Shown here in pieces: positions 7,685-62,064 of a DNA stretch of 64,000 bases (position 1 is its first letter; each line of letters opens with the position of its first letter). The stretch comes from Streptomyces sp. NBC_01476 (GTDB lineage: Bacteria > Actinomycetota > Actinomycetes > Streptomycetales > Streptomycetaceae): positions 6,713,001-6,777,000 of the forward strand of contig NZ_CP109446.1 in NCBI RefSeq assembly GCF_036227265.1, given 5' to 3'. Below the pieces are notes generated by a model that made no database searches, was not told the DNA's origin, and saw only the letters and a list, made by a program, of their open reading frames with translations. Made by a program: the position numbers and the translations under genes.

Positions 7685-7864
7685 GTCGCCCCGCGGACTG
7701 ATTGCGTCGGGAAGAGTCGAAAACCGCGGAAAGGCGCGGACTTACGATTTCCTGCACGTGCAGTTGCAACGGGCGTCGACACTTTGACCTGTAAGGCGGA
7801 AGCTGCCGGACGGCCGGCCGCGGATGCGGGGACACGTCACGGGAAGGCGCGGGTGGGTGCGGTC

Positions 7865-8335
7865 ATGGAGGTCCGCGGGAGCGTTCCGACAGGTCAGGCT
7901 CCGGCTCCGAGACCGTACGAGGGGGTGTGGCGGTTCACCGTCCCGGCCATCGACTCGTCCGTCCCGCAGGTGCGGCACGGCGTCCGCGGACTCGTCGCCG
8001 ACCTGGGTGTCCCGATGGAGGAGGACCTGTTCTACGGGTTGCTGCTGATCGTCTCGGAGCTGGTCACCAACGCGGTCAAGCACGCGGCGGTGCTCTCGCC
8101 GGAGATCTCGGTGGAGGTCGCGGTCGGCGCCGAGTGGATCAGGGTCGCCGTCGAGGACAACCACCCCTACCGCCCCAAGGCCCTGGAGACGGACCACGGG
8201 CGTACCGGCGGACGCGGGCTGCTGCTGGTCAAGAGCATCACCGACGACGCAGGCGGCTCCTGCGACGTCACCCAGACCCCGACCGGCGGCAAGGTCATCT
8301 GGGCGGCGCTCCCGTTGCGCGCCGCCGCGGGTTGA
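7865..8335 (+). CDS. small ATP-binding protein, RsbW/SpoIIAB-like histidine-kinase fold
   Basis: This 156-residue stand-alone GHKL ATPase domain has an N-box ELVTNAVKHA (about 63-72), a G1-type VEDNHP and a G2 box GRTGGRGLLLVKSI. It lacks a histidine phosphoacceptor domain, so it is of the anti-sigma-kinase or AbaA-like regulatory class common in Streptomyces. Such proteins bind a sigma factor or antagonist, but no partner gene is adjacent. The frame is open upstream to 7280, but homology begins only at this ATG. The gene ends 18 bp before the stop of the convergent idi gene. Confidence 0.85.
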   Translation: MEVRGSVPTGQAPAPRPYEGVWRFTVPAIDSSVPQVRHGVRGLVADLGVPMEEDLFYGLLLIVSELVTNAVKHAAVLSPEISVEVAVGAEWIRVAVEDNHPYRPKALETDHGRTGGRGLLLVKSITDDAGGSCDVTQTPTGGKVIWAALPLRAAAG

Positions 8336-57240: not shown

Positions 57241-57314
<74 letters not shown>

Positions 57315-57322
57315 CGGTGCGA

Positions 57323-57509: not shown

Positions 57510-58736
57510 CTACAACCGGCGGAGGGTCGCGGACATGCCGGGGGAGGGCGGCGGGAGGCCCGGGGTGGCGGTCAGGTGGGTGCTGAGGTCCCGTCCGGCA
57601 CGGACGACGCTTTGCAGGTCGGGGTGGAGGTAGCGCTGGGTTGTCTGCAGGGAGCCGTGCCCGGCGATCAACCGCAGGACGTGCAGGGGGACCCCGGCGT
57701 CCGCCATCCACGTCAGGCCGGTGTGGCGCAGGTCGTGCCGGCGCAGGTGCTCGTAGCCGAGGGACTGGACGACCTCGTCCCAGTGGGTGGCGTCGCGCAG
57801 CACGGCGGTGGTGATCCGGCCGCCGCGGGGGCCGGTGAACAGCCGGGCATCGGCTCTTCCGCCGAGGGCGAGCACGCGCTGGGCAACCATGGGACGCAGC
57901 TCGTCGATGAGCGGGACGCGGCGGGCGACCTTTCCCTTGGTGTTCTTGTCGGCGAGGCCGCCGGGGGACGGGGTGGTCTGCCGCCGGAGGTTCCAGATCC
58001 AGTTCGCGGTGTCGATGTCCTTGACCCGCACGCCGGAGACTTCGCCGATGCGGGCGGCGGTGCAGGCGGCGAAGGTCACCACATCGCCCCAGCCGCGGTA
58101 CTGGTCGAAGGATCTGGCGACCAGGGCCTGGCTGAGTTCCTGGAGCGCGTCCCAGTCACGCAGTGCCAGGGAGCGGGGGTCGTCGAGTTCATCCTCGGCC
58201 AGCTGGTACTGCCGCTGCCATCCCTTGATCCGGGCGGGATTGGCGGTGATCAGACCGTCGCGGACAGCCTGCTCCATGACCCGCACCAGGACGGCGAGGC
58301 TGTTCTTGACCGTCGAGCGGCCCTCGCCGTCGGCGATCCACGCGTAGACGGTGCGGTCGACGGCCCCGTTGGTGACCATGGTCACCGGCAGGTGCCCGAG
58401 CGCGGGCACGACCCGCAGCCGCCACCCGGCCAGGTAGGGGTCGGTGGTCTTGGGCTCAAGCCCGCGCAGCGCCAGTTGCATATGGGCGTCGCCGTACTCG
58501 GCCAGGGACTGGGTCGCGGCCGACGGGTCGATCCCCCGGCCCGCCGAGGCGAGCAGGGAGTCGATCCAATCCTGCGCCGCCTCGTTAGTGGCGTGCATCT
58601 GGGCGACGGAGCGTCGGCGCTTGGTGTGGGGGTCCACCCAGCGCATGCGCGCCTTGTAGGGGAGCTTCCGGCCGGGGCGCTGCTCGACGTCGTGCGACAG
58701 AGGGACAGCGATGGGAAGTTGGTGACGGTAGGCCAC
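57510..58736 (-). CDS. int: tyrosine recombinase (site-specific integrase)
   Basis: From the GTG at 58736 the protein has 408 residues. An N-terminal SAM-like core-binding domain (about 60-160) precedes the catalytic domain. The catalytic residues are Arg in CTAARIGEVSG, the HxxR box in RRHDLRHTGL, His in IAGHGSLQTTQ and the nucleophilic Tyr in TQRYLHPDL. The gene is one base behind the excisionase-like gene, so they form a coupled int-xis unit. Its 3' end faces tRNA-Pro, the probable attachment site. A Pro-rich tail follows the active site. Confidence 0.94.
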   Translation of the reverse strand: MAYRHQLPIAVPLSHDVEQRPGRKLPYKARMRWVDPHTKRRRSVAQMHATNEAAQDWIDSLLASAGRGIDPSAATQSLAEYGDAHMQLALRGLEPKTTDPYLAGWRLRVVPALGHLPVTMVTNGAVDRTVYAWIADGEGRSTVKNSLAVLVRVMEQAVRDGLITANPARIKGWQRQYQLAEDELDDPRSLALRDWDALQELSQALVARSFDQYRGWGDVVTFAACTAARIGEVSGVRVKDIDTANWIWNLRRQTTPSPGGLADKNTKGKVARRVPLIDELRPMVAQRVLALGGRADARLFTGPRGGRITTAVLRDATHWDEVVQSLGYEHLRRHDLRHTGLTWMADAGVPLHVLRLIAGHGSLQTTQRYLHPDLQSVVRAGRDLSTHLTATPGLPPPSPGMSATLRRL

Positions 58737-58737
58737 G

Positions 58738-59025
58738 TCAGGCCGCCTTCCGCCGAGAGCCAGGCACGGAACGGCGCTCGTCCAGCCAGCCCTGCAAATC
58801 ATCGGCGCCGTACAGAACCACGCGCTCGGACAGCCGGATAAAGGGCGGACCCTGCGGGGGACGTTCCGCCCGCCACCGCCGAACCGAGGACGGATCGACC
58901 CGCAGGAGTCGGGCCACTTCTTCGGTGGTCAGCAGTCGTGAGGTCCGTAGCCCTGCGGGGGTGGCATCGACAGCGTGCCGGGTCGGAGCGGAGTGGGCTG
59001 CTGGTATGGCGGAGCGTTGGGGCAT
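58738..59025 (-). CDS. excisionase-like helix-turn-helix protein
   Basis: From the ATG at 59025 (MPQRSAIPAAHSAP) the protein has 95 residues. It carries a MerR-like/AlpA HTH_17 domain: LLTTEEVARLLRVDPSSVRRW, wing FIRLSERVVLYGADDLQGWLDERR. Such proteins are directionality factors or regulators in integrative elements. The gene lies directly upstream of the integrase. A longer frame from 59112 overlaps a perfect hairpin and is unlikely. Confidence 0.85.
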   Translation of the reverse strand: MPQRSAIPAAHSAPTRHAVDATPAGLRTSRLLTTEEVARLLRVDPSSVRRWRAERPPQGPPFIRLSERVVLYGADDLQGWLDERRSVPGSRRKAA

Positions 59026-59095
59026 GCACTTCCTTGACGTCGGCTTCAGGAGCAAGACAAAACGATGGACACAAACCCCACGAAGTCCAGCCAAG

Positions 59096-59128
59096 CAGCG
59101 GCTGTTCTCCATGGGAGAACAGCCGCTG
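59096..59128. repeat. 15-bp perfect hairpin, 3-nt loop
   Basis: CAGCGGCTGTTCTCC (59096-59110) pairs with 59114-59128 around ATG. It lies 70 bp upstream of the excisionase-like start (minus strand) and 40 bp before the first 32-bp repeat. Confidence 0.75.
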
Positions 59129-59167
59129 GCTGAACAGGGATCCGCTATCCATCTTCATCAAGAAAGG

Positions 59168-59199
59168 CGTTTTGCCTGACGGCATTTTCCGTGTTATCA
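59168..59199 (+). promoter_or_regulatory. 32-bp direct repeat, copy 1 (promoter/operator-like)
   Basis: A 32-base sequence starting CGTTTTGCCTGACGGCATTT and ending CCGTGTTATCA is identical here and at 60757-60788. It contains TGCC-TGAC-GGCA as small palindrome. TTGCCT and TATCAC are spaced by 17 bp, like a -35/-10 pair in the plus direction. About 12 of the 20 bases upstream also match between copies. The nuclease gene starts 440 bp downstream. Confidence 0.75.
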
Positions 59200-59410
59200 C
59201 GCCCGGGCGTGGACTGCCTTCAGCCGCTGACCCACTCGCAGATGACACGGGCCGACCGCGGAGCGCGGGGGAGGGACGCCCGCCAAAGTCACACAGATGA
59301 CCGGACGCACAAGCACGATGAAGAGTCCCAGCCCCGCACGCAAGCGGCGTACCCAGGCCACTTGCGACGCACGCATACGCTGCCAGGGCGGGGCGGCAGG
59401 GCGGCAGGAA

Positions 59411-59439
59411 AGAGTAACGGCTCCGGAGGACGTTACTCT
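59411..59439. repeat. inverted repeat AGAGTAACG / CGTTACTCT
   Basis: Perfect 9-bp arms (59411-59419, 59431-59439) surround a loop that itself contains CTCCGGAG. Possible operator or terminator between the first 32-bp repeat and the nuclease gene. Confidence 0.65.
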
Positions 59440-59639
59440 CCCAGACGTTTCCGCAGGTCAGAGAGGTATCTGGCGCAACGTTGGGTCCGCCGCGCCACAA
59501 ATACGCCACGCGCTCCGACCTGAGAACTGATTACCCATCAGGCGGCTGCGGTGAACCTCTGCGCCGGAAATAATTGCGCATCCCTGCCGTGTTGGTGTCA
59601 CGTCGGTGATCGGTGTGAAGGATCGCAAGGGTGGCGTAG

Positions 59640-60521
59640 TTGAAGCTGTTCACGCTGGGTGATGGCAACGCTATAGAGATCGTACCGCAGGCGCTGGGAT
59701 TCGAGCGGGATCTCCAGAGGCTGGTCGAGGCGAACATGCCCGCGCTGCTGGGCGTCCGCTTCCTGGCGAGCGAGTACAGCACGGGCCCGGTGCACGGCGG
59801 GCGGATCGATTCGTTGGGGATCGACGAGAACGGTGCTCCGGTAGTGGTGGAGTACAAGCGCGAGCGTGACCCGGGGGTGATCACCCAGGGGCTGTTCTAC
59901 CTGGCATGGCTGACCGATCACCGGGCGGAATTCGAGGCCCTGGTCCGCGACCGGCTCGGGGTTCCGACCGCGGCCCAGGTGCTGTGGAGCGCACCGAGGC
60001 TGATCTGCGTCGCGGAGGATTTCACCCGCTACGACCGGCACGCGGTCGGTGAGATCCGCCGCTGCATCGACCTGGTCCGCTACCGCTTCTTCGGCGCCGG
60101 CCTGCTCGGCCTTGAGCCGGTCGTCACCGCCGCGGCCCGCGACCGCGGCCGGGGAGCGGGGTCGGGCCGCGCCGGGCGCATGCCGAAGAGGCAGCCGACC
60201 GGGGGCGGGATCGGCGAGCTGCGGGACGCGCTGGACGAGGTGCTGGTGTCCTTGGGCGAGGACGTGCGGCGGATCGAGCGCAAGCAGTACCGGGCCTACC
60301 GCAGGCTGCGGAACGTCGCCTGCGTCGGCCGCGGCCACCGCAGTGAGGTGCTGGTATACCTGCGGGCGGATCCCAAGAAGGTCGACCTCGTACCTGGGTT
60401 CAGCCGGGATGTGAGCGGTCTGGGTCATCACGGGACCGGTGACCTGGAGGTCCGGCTGCGCACCGAGAACGACCTGGAGCGCGCCAGCGACCTGCTGCGG
60501 CTCAGCTACGCCGCGGCGTAG
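59640..60521 (+). CDS. PD-(D/E)XK nuclease-like protein with DUF5655-like C-terminus
   Basis: The TTG at 59640, with AAGG and GGTGG upstream, gives 293 residues. The N-terminal domain shows RIDSLGIDENGAPVVVEYKRE, that is D57 and E71-x-K73, a PD-(D/E)XK nuclease core like that of NucS-type endonucleases. A linker with many Arg/Gly (about 165-185) leads to a C-terminal domain of about 100 residues resembling DUF5655 (VACVGRGHRSEVLVYLRADPKKVD). It probably binds or cuts damaged or branched DNA. It lies on the tRNA-Pro element and shares an upstream repeat with the polymerase-like gene. Confidence 0.8.
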   Translation: MKLFTLGDGNAIEIVPQALGFERDLQRLVEANMPALLGVRFLASEYSTGPVHGGRIDSLGIDENGAPVVVEYKRERDPGVITQGLFYLAWLTDHRAEFEALVRDRLGVPTAAQVLWSAPRLICVAEDFTRYDRHAVGEIRRCIDLVRYRFFGAGLLGLEPVVTAAARDRGRGAGSGRAGRMPKRQPTGGGIGELRDALDEVLVSLGEDVRRIERKQYRAYRRLRNVACVGRGHRSEVLVYLRADPKKVDLVPGFSRDVSGLGHHGTGDLEVRLRTENDLERASDLLRLSYAAA

Positions 60522-61053
60522 CGGGCCGCTACGGGTGGCGAGGATGGGTGTCGGCCGGACCGGGCGGCACCCATCGGCGTGCCTGCGGCGGAGCTGCTTC
60601 GACGGGTGCGAGCGCCGGGCTGACACATGGGAGCGCTGATGGTCCCGCACGGAATGCGGCTCTGTGTCAGGGATGCGCATGGAGGTGGCGGTGGCGGCTC
60701 CTTTCGTCGGCACGGGCGGGAGGTGGCGGTGTGTATTCCATGATGCTGAGAAAAGACGTTTTGCCTGACGGCATTTTCCGTGTTATCAGGCGCCTGGGCT
60801 CGGACCCAGGGCAGTCGGCGGGTCGTCATCGCGTCCGCCGGTCCGTCGCACCATCGGCTGGAGACGCCGGTCCCGTGTCGCGTTCCGCGCGGTAGGCCAG
60901 GCGATGCGGGCCCTCGGGTAGCGGCTGAGACGTTGGGGTGTCGCGGGCCGCTGTATCGCCGCACCGGTCTTGGCTTCTGAGGAGAGTGCATCCCGCGCAG
61001 CGTGTTCGAATTAAGTTCGAGTAGCTTTGGGGTTCGATCCGGGAGGTGGCCAC
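60522..61053. other. 532-bp intergenic region upstream of the polymerase-like gene
   Basis: There is no supported gene. It contains the second copy of the 32-bp direct repeat followed by the palindrome CAGGCGCCTG (60787-60796). Near 61000 a less GC-rich part (GTGTTCGAATTAAGTTCGAGTAG) contains TTCGA twice, facing GGGAGG just before the ATG at 61054. Confidence 0.55.
60757..60788 (+). promoter_or_regulatory. 32-bp direct repeat, copy 2 (promoter/operator-like)
   Basis: Identical to 59168-59199 over 32 bases. It lies 265 bp upstream of the Y-family polymerase-like gene, and like copy 1 is followed directly by a perfect palindrome, although the palindromes differ. A shared control site is likelier than a transposon end, since the copies are direct and each precedes a gene. 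Confidence 0.75.
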
Positions 61054-62064
61054 ATGGAGATGCCGCAGCAGGCTGCTGTGCGGGGAGCGCATGTGCTGCA
61101 TGTGCGGTGCCGGCCGGGAACCGGTGAAGCGGGCTACTGGGCCCTGCTTGACCTGGCCTGCGATGTCTCGCCGGTGGTGCAGGTGCTCCCGCCGGCTGCC
61201 GCGCTGGTCGATGTGGCGGGGGCGCTTCGTTACTGGGACGCCTCCCCTTGGGATCTGGGCATGCGGTTGCGGCTGCGCGCCGCGGCCCTCCTGGGGATCG
61301 ACGTGCGGGTGGGGGCCGGCCCGAACTGGACGGTCGCTGCGATGGCCTCCAAGGGGCCGCTGCCGGTGGCCCTGGTGCCCGACGACTCGGTGGCGGTGAG
61401 GTCGTTCCTGGATCCGCTGCCGGTCGGCATGCTGCACGGCATCGGCCCGGTCCAGGCCGAGCGGCTGGTCTCCTTCGGTCTGCACAGCGTCGGCCTGCTG
61501 GCCGCGACCCCGGAGGGCACCGTGCAGCGGATCCTCGGCGGCCGGGCCGGCCGCCTGCTGCGCGACCGCGCCCTCGGCATCGACCCGCGCCCGGTGACCC
61601 CGTCCAGCCTGCCCTCCTCCACCAGGGAGCGTCGCATCTTCGACCGCGACACCCTCGACGCCGAAGCGGTTCGTACCGCGCTGCTGGAATCCGCGGTCGC
61701 CCTGGGGGCCCGGCTGCGCGCCCGGCAGCAGATCGCCGGCACCCTCGCACTGGAGGTCGCCTTCGCCGACGGCTCAGCCATCACCCGCACCCGGACGCTT
61801 CCCGAACCCTCATGCCACACCGACGACCTGCGCACGGCTGCGTACGGGGTGTTCCAGGCGCTGCACCTGGAGCGCGCCCGTATCCGCGCGATCACCCTTA
61901 CGGTGGACAAGCTCGCCGCGGCCGGCAGCGCGGGCGGGCAGATCAGCCTGGACCGGGCCCGGGAGAACCGGCTGCGCGCCGAGCCTGTCATCGACGAGCT
62001 GAATGCCAGGTTCGGTCCTGGCGCGGTACGTCCGGCGGCCCTGTCGTGGCGCCGAGCGGGCTGA
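61054..62064 (+). CDS. Y-family DNA polymerase-like protein, catalytic acids apparently missing
   Basis: From the ATG at 61054, with GGGAGG upstream, the protein has 336 residues. The helix-hairpin-helix thumb segment is clear (LPVGMLHGIGPVQAERLVSFGLHSVGLLAATP), followed by GRAGRLLRDRALGIDPRPVTP and a little-finger domain. In active enzymes the N-terminus reads like HVDMDAFFA and later SIDEAFLD; here the matching parts are VLHVRCRPGTGE and ALVDVAGALRYW, so most metal-binding acids are not seen. It resembles ImuB-type non-catalytic partners of mutagenic repair. This reading rests on motifs, not an alignment. Confidence 0.82.
   Translation: MEMPQQAAVRGAHVLHVRCRPGTGEAGYWALLDLACDVSPVVQVLPPAAALVDVAGALRYWDASPWDLGMRLRLRAAALLGIDVRVGAGPNWTVAAMASKGPLPVALVPDDSVAVRSFLDPLPVGMLHGIGPVQAERLVSFGLHSVGLLAATPEGTVQRILGGRAGRLLRDRALGIDPRPVTPSSLPSSTRERRIFDRDTLDAEAVRTALLESAVALGARLRARQQIAGTLALEVAFADGSAITRTRTLPEPSCHTDDLRTAAYGVFQALHLERARIRAITLTVDKLAAAGSAGGQISLDRARENRLRAEPVIDELNARFGPGAVRPAALSWRRAG

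Follow-up and report, generated by a model that had tools for sequence, protein, structure and literature searches.

A repeated site in a tRNA-Pro element

Within the window (the whole stretch of 64,000 nucleotides that was analysed) lies an element at a tRNA-Pro gene in which the 32-base sequence CGTTTTGCCTGACGGCATTTTCCGTGTTATCA occurs identically at 59168-59199 and 60757-60788. Its features are as follows, "form A" (A-type) denoting the type of site to which both copies belong:

57241-57315 (+): tRNA-Pro(GGG), the presumed integration target
57510-58802 (-): tyrosine recombinase (integrase, int), longest ORF
58738-59025 (-): excisionase-like HTH_17 protein (xis), with the start ATG at 59025 after AAGGAAG being our choice
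59085-59135 (-): leader hairpin between copy 1 and xis, tip TTCTCC-NNN-GGAGAA, from a predicted RNA fold
59151-59199 (-): module copy 1 (A-type), a 38-bp core plus the -10-like hexamer GAAGAT (59156-59151), reading leftward to xis-int
59404-60788 (+): nuclease module, comprising a DUF5655/NucS_C-like gene (59640-60521) and motif copy 2; homologous blocks in the genomes G028 and G018 stop at the motif
60740-60788 (-): module copy 2 (A-type), a 38-bp core plus the -10-like hexamer CATCAT (60745-60740), reading leftward to the 3' end of the DUF5655/NucS-like gene

The 5' end of the longest integrase ORF overlaps the xis ORF, so the true integrase start is probably further in; for xis, the longest ATG ORF starts at 59112. 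The predicted RNA fold of 59078-59150 has an energy of -42.1 kcal/mol (z -5.1), and since the hairpin is retained in the relative G013 with altered stem letters, it may gate xis translation. The polymerase-like gene at 61027-62064 (+) matches Pfam in its Y-family C-terminal and HHH parts only, with no match to the catalytic palm, and is possibly an inactive form. Further into the region (L118, genome positions 6780621-6783142), our sequence reading finds pieces resembling an ATP-dependent DNA ligase that are apparently split by an insertion.

The identity of the two 32-base copies, as claimed by the sequence-only reading, is exact and far beyond chance, about 2e-8 such exact repeat pairs being expected in 64 kb by base composition, and the similarity between both copies reaches 55 nt at 84%. 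The perfect palindromes that were said to follow each copy, CACGCCCGGGCGTG and CAGGCGCCTG, are indeed present beside them, but a palindrome of at least 10 bp adjoins the core at just these two of 30 related sites (background 1.4%). They are thus peculiar to the window copies and fall outside the conserved feature.

Both copies lie at module boundaries. In several relatives, homology to the int module begins within tRNA-Pro(GGG), and in relatives it stops at 59198-59199, at the motif, while homology to the nuclease module (about 59404-60788) likewise stops at the motif; the direct repeat therefore arises where two site-bearing modules adjoin. Another locus of the same genome (L071, position 6922853) has a left flank of the copy-1 type (90% over 20 nt) and a right flank of the copy-2 type (87% over 100 nt), with no nuclease gene between them. 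Whatever the order of events behind it, this chimera has the junction that copy-to-copy recombination would give, and recombination at the repeat, as envisaged by the sequence-only reading, is plausible.

The repeat is the core of a promoter-like site

Judged by its sequence and that of its relatives, the 32-base repeat is the core of a promoter-like control site of about 47 bp (roughly 50 bases). The wider module occurs eight times in its own genome (one 8.4-Mb contig), the exact 32-mer in two of these, and a profile search of the 35 genomes in the genus found strong form A matches in 12. We take this genus to be Actinacidiphila, since a locus in one of its members is identical to that of Actinacidiphila paucisporea. 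Among the 395 family genomes searched, the form A pattern had no match in other genera. An exact 19-mer search of genome contigs returned three relevant actinomycete loci, the remaining matches being chance-like, and plasmid and phage collections held no relevant match to form A. The Rfam scan gave tRNA and one sub-threshold match and nothing else, and the literature search for the form A or form B sequence (form B is described below) found nothing relevant.

Alignment of 27 form A sites in reverse complement revealed, in order, a conserved block ATARCACGGAAAATACCGTCAGGCAAAACGCGTTTTCT, an xAnnnT hexamer at positions 42-47 and an invariant G49. All of the 27 A sites (27/27) and of the 11 B sites used in the comparison keep A43 and T47 of this -10-like hexamer. 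Conservation drops steeply past the module edges, with flanks that differ by locus family. The layout matches the spacing and pattern of a promoter in which the conserved site would cover the -35 region, and a good -35 hexamer is absent from the module.

Three other identities for the repeat were rejected. A peptide, MPSGKT, encoded across it is at odds with the GGTA variants, in which the ATG is missing. A tyrosine-recombinase core (att, dif or pdif) has two inverted arms of about 11 bp around a 6-8 bp spacer, whereas form B has a 12-bp dyad with a 5-nt spacer and form A has lost the arms. The end of an insertion sequence, given by the sequence-only reading as an example of what would refute its own proposal, does not fit either, nor does a MITE: both would show inverted terminal copies around a mobile unit inserted at random places, whereas recurrent gene families accompany the site in many genomes and its copies are single or direct, with no inverted partner copy seen.

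Five kinds of locus bear form A. The first is xis-int, and at the second, that of window copy 2, a short leader points at the 3' end of a DUF5655/NucS_C-like gene. The third comprises rep-SpdB-Mob-relaxase elements with serine recombinases, the fourth an operon in which an MFS transporter accompanies two HxlR-like regulators, and the fifth further int genes. Several of these gene names come from our own sequence reading, the Pfam and NCBIfam scan having covered the window proteins. On the minus-strand side of the module the first gene is co-directional with it at 33 of the 45 sites that have a gene there, while on the opposite side a gene reads away from the module at 11 of 38 sites, both counts resting on our own simple gene caller. 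Because the hexamer and the usual co-directional gene lie on the minus-strand side, copy 1 most likely serves xis-int rather than the nuclease gene. At sites of the copy 2 kind (type II), the leader has an RBS-like end and no conserved reading frame follows. The HxlR/MFS operon is apparently chromosomal, with no transfer gene seen alongside its sites.

These findings bear on the earlier idea that a common switch drives the nuclease and polymerase-like genes. A shared promoter- or operator-like site is supported; the proposed direction and targets are not, as the hexamer and gene starts lie on the minus-strand side and neither window copy points at the plus-strand repair-type genes. The polymerase-like gene is not next to the motif in L060, a relative that has both.

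Site type follows the host clade

Two genomes of the genus, G021 and G007, have the xis-int genes and the HxlR operon without form A, and another sequence is common to both promoters. This form B, with the consensus CAACATAGCCGNNGATCGCCGGTTAGCCAAACCGGCGATNNTCCGGAYCATTGAT, aligns with form A without gaps across 47 positions and keeps A43 and T47. It was found (at most three mismatches) in 144 of 395 family genomes, a single genome having as many as a dozen or so sites, and the reversed pattern used as a control gave few matches. Two circular plasmids from Streptomyces sp. SNU607 carry it as well. Its neighbours belong to the same gene families as those of form A, the convergent DUF5655 gene included. 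Form B contains a 12-bp dyad, GGTT-N5-AACC, with co-varying arms, folds with a z of -4.5, and differs in this from form A, which has lost the dyad. In the plus direction B-type sites read TTGGCT-N17-TATGTT, with CAACATAG conserved in most, and a divergent promoter is therefore possible in form B.

At six loci (L214, L215, L220, L226, L227 and L229) a convergent DUF5655/NucS-like gene accompanies form B. Aligned without L229, these show a leader of about 50 nt that ends in CGAAAGG or a near form, has no conserved frame behind it and is possibly a small RNA. One of them, L226, on a Streptomyces sp. SNU607 plasmid, encodes at 7688-7966 a 92-residue "MarR family" protein that resembles the DNA-binding domain of LexA without the protease part; similar proteins are found as extra copies in several B-type genomes.

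To compare distances, 22 A sites and 11 B sites were picked by hand, leaving aside the weaker A sites and the mixed class of int sites. Within this set, A sites from different locus families differ at 4-5.7 of 38 positions (maximum 9), and A and B sites within one locus family at 16.7-17.9 of 38 (minimum 15). In a tree of the lexA region, built without G013, G034 and G014, all 10 A genomes fall within one clade of 17 tips and the 5 B genomes among the other 11; random dealing of the labels over the 15 tips would give so clean a split once in 3003 times, kinship being ignored in this figure. Since the same locus families carry A in one clade and B in the other, the site follows the host and not the locus. 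One element of the window's own genome has the same private variant, with 35 identical bases, at both its int and its rep site (genome positions 2227546 and 2232092); this variant is nearer to A and has some letters in common with B.

A proposed regulator and its alternatives

On this sequence evidence, we think it probable that mobile elements of the Streptomycetaceae use the repeat as a promoter-operator module, that each copy directs transcription leftward, and that a trans-acting factor belonging to the host lineage controls it. Copy 1 would drive minus-strand transcription of the xis-int operon, and copy 2 that of a short leader which runs towards the 3' end of the DUF5655/NucS-like gene. 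The putative protein would bind the core of about 38 bp over the -35 region and so switch a set of elements together, in their integration and excision, replication and mobilisation, and cargo. What suggests a host-lineage factor is the use of A by elements of one host clade and of B by those of its sister clade and elsewhere in the family. That it activates rather than represses is a guess from the missing -35. The loss of the dyad from A-type sites is odd for a simple dimer operator and counts against the promoter-operator reading, as does the lack of a conserved reading frame behind the leader of type II sites.

More tentatively, a single host-encoded regulator could run the promoters for integrase, replication/mobilisation and cargo genes in many elements that are unrelated to one another, its DNA specificity having shifted once in one clade and the residents having followed, which would create a clade-level barrier to exchange; we regard this version as possible but doubtful. 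Also counting against the promoter-operator reading, no gene common to all motif-bearing elements was found as a candidate regulator, and no common autoregulated gene was seen in single-site genomes. One candidate, a LexA-type DNA-binding protein of a B-type plasmid (P0001), was set aside: extra copies occur in 5 of 6 B genomes and also outside them, in G008, G019, G026 and G034 (the last being the sole A genome with one), and the association is confounded by kinship.

The main rival is that recombination, not a regulator, homogenises the sites, with elements of one host population swapping modules at them as mosaic phages do at boundary sequences. The L071 chimera within the same genome and the end of both int and nuclease module homology at the motif speak for such exchange, but similarity drops sharply at the module edges into flanks specific to each locus family, and conversion tracts would have to halt at a functional boundary every time. 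We consider it unlikely. A folded site, as single-stranded DNA or an RNA hairpin, for a relaxase, integrase or replication protein (an oriT or a recombination core, for example) would account for the 12-bp stem of form B, its compensatory arm changes and fold z of -4.5, and for the sites within relaxase-bearing elements. It leaves the -10-like hexamer and the close gene starts unexplained, the stem is lost in A-type sites and no transfer gene is seen beside the HxlR/MFS operon sites; we rate this explanation as very unlikely.

Equally hard to credit is the reading in which TTGCCT-N17-TATCA acts as a plus-strand promoter for the nuclease and polymerase-like genes, perhaps in response to DNA damage. 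The plus-direction TTGGCT-N17-TATGTT of B sites and their mostly conserved CAACATAG speak for it; against it, the last T of the -10 is missing in 27/27 A sites, plus-side genes are not conserved and the scan for sigma-70-like promoters found none. Nor does the suggested damage control find a basis, as there is no LexA box GAACNNNNGTTC near the copies: 57-64 kb contains no exact match, and overall the box is about as frequent as chance predicts.

Under the promoter-operator reading, if true, one factor over integrases and replication genes would explain the joint silencing or waking of many unrelated Streptomycetaceae elements, and the A/B difference would make it possible to test whether elements track a regulator of their host. 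The module can also serve as a profile in searches for mobile elements of this kind.

Comparison with known systems

The LexA/SOS regulon of Actinobacteria, with its operator GAACNNNNGTTC, resembles the present case in the idea of a dyad operator, and differs in that this operator is not found near the copies, the B dyad being GGTT-N5-AACC and form A having none. SetCD of SXT/R391 and AcaCD of IncC are master activators of the FlhDC type, encoded by a helper element, that also act on satellite genomic islands. In those systems one activator site recurs, where a -35 is missing, at xis/int and other promoters of elements that are otherwise unrelated. The present case is alike by sequence, a common site over the -35 region being found at xis, int and rep promoters of several elements. 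Unlike in those systems, the site type here follows the host clade.

Nearest among the systems in the papers found is the Pra/KorSA circuit of pSAM2 from Streptomyces ambofaciens, which controls repSA-xis-int (PMC8584621, PMC3218068). PMC3218068 reports a proposal that elements within one strain engage in cross-talk. The published motif of the KorSA homologue SCO3932, AC[TC]T[AG]TT[GC][TG][GT]ACG, does not match the core by eye, a comparison made with the SCO3932 consensus only. As in pSAM2, one regulator would act on both the replication and the xis-int genes of a Streptomyces integrative element. In contrast to its single Pra-dependent repSA-xis-int promoter, rep and xis-int are apart here, each with a site of its own, and the present site is common to elements without a shared gene and to an apparently chromosomal operon.
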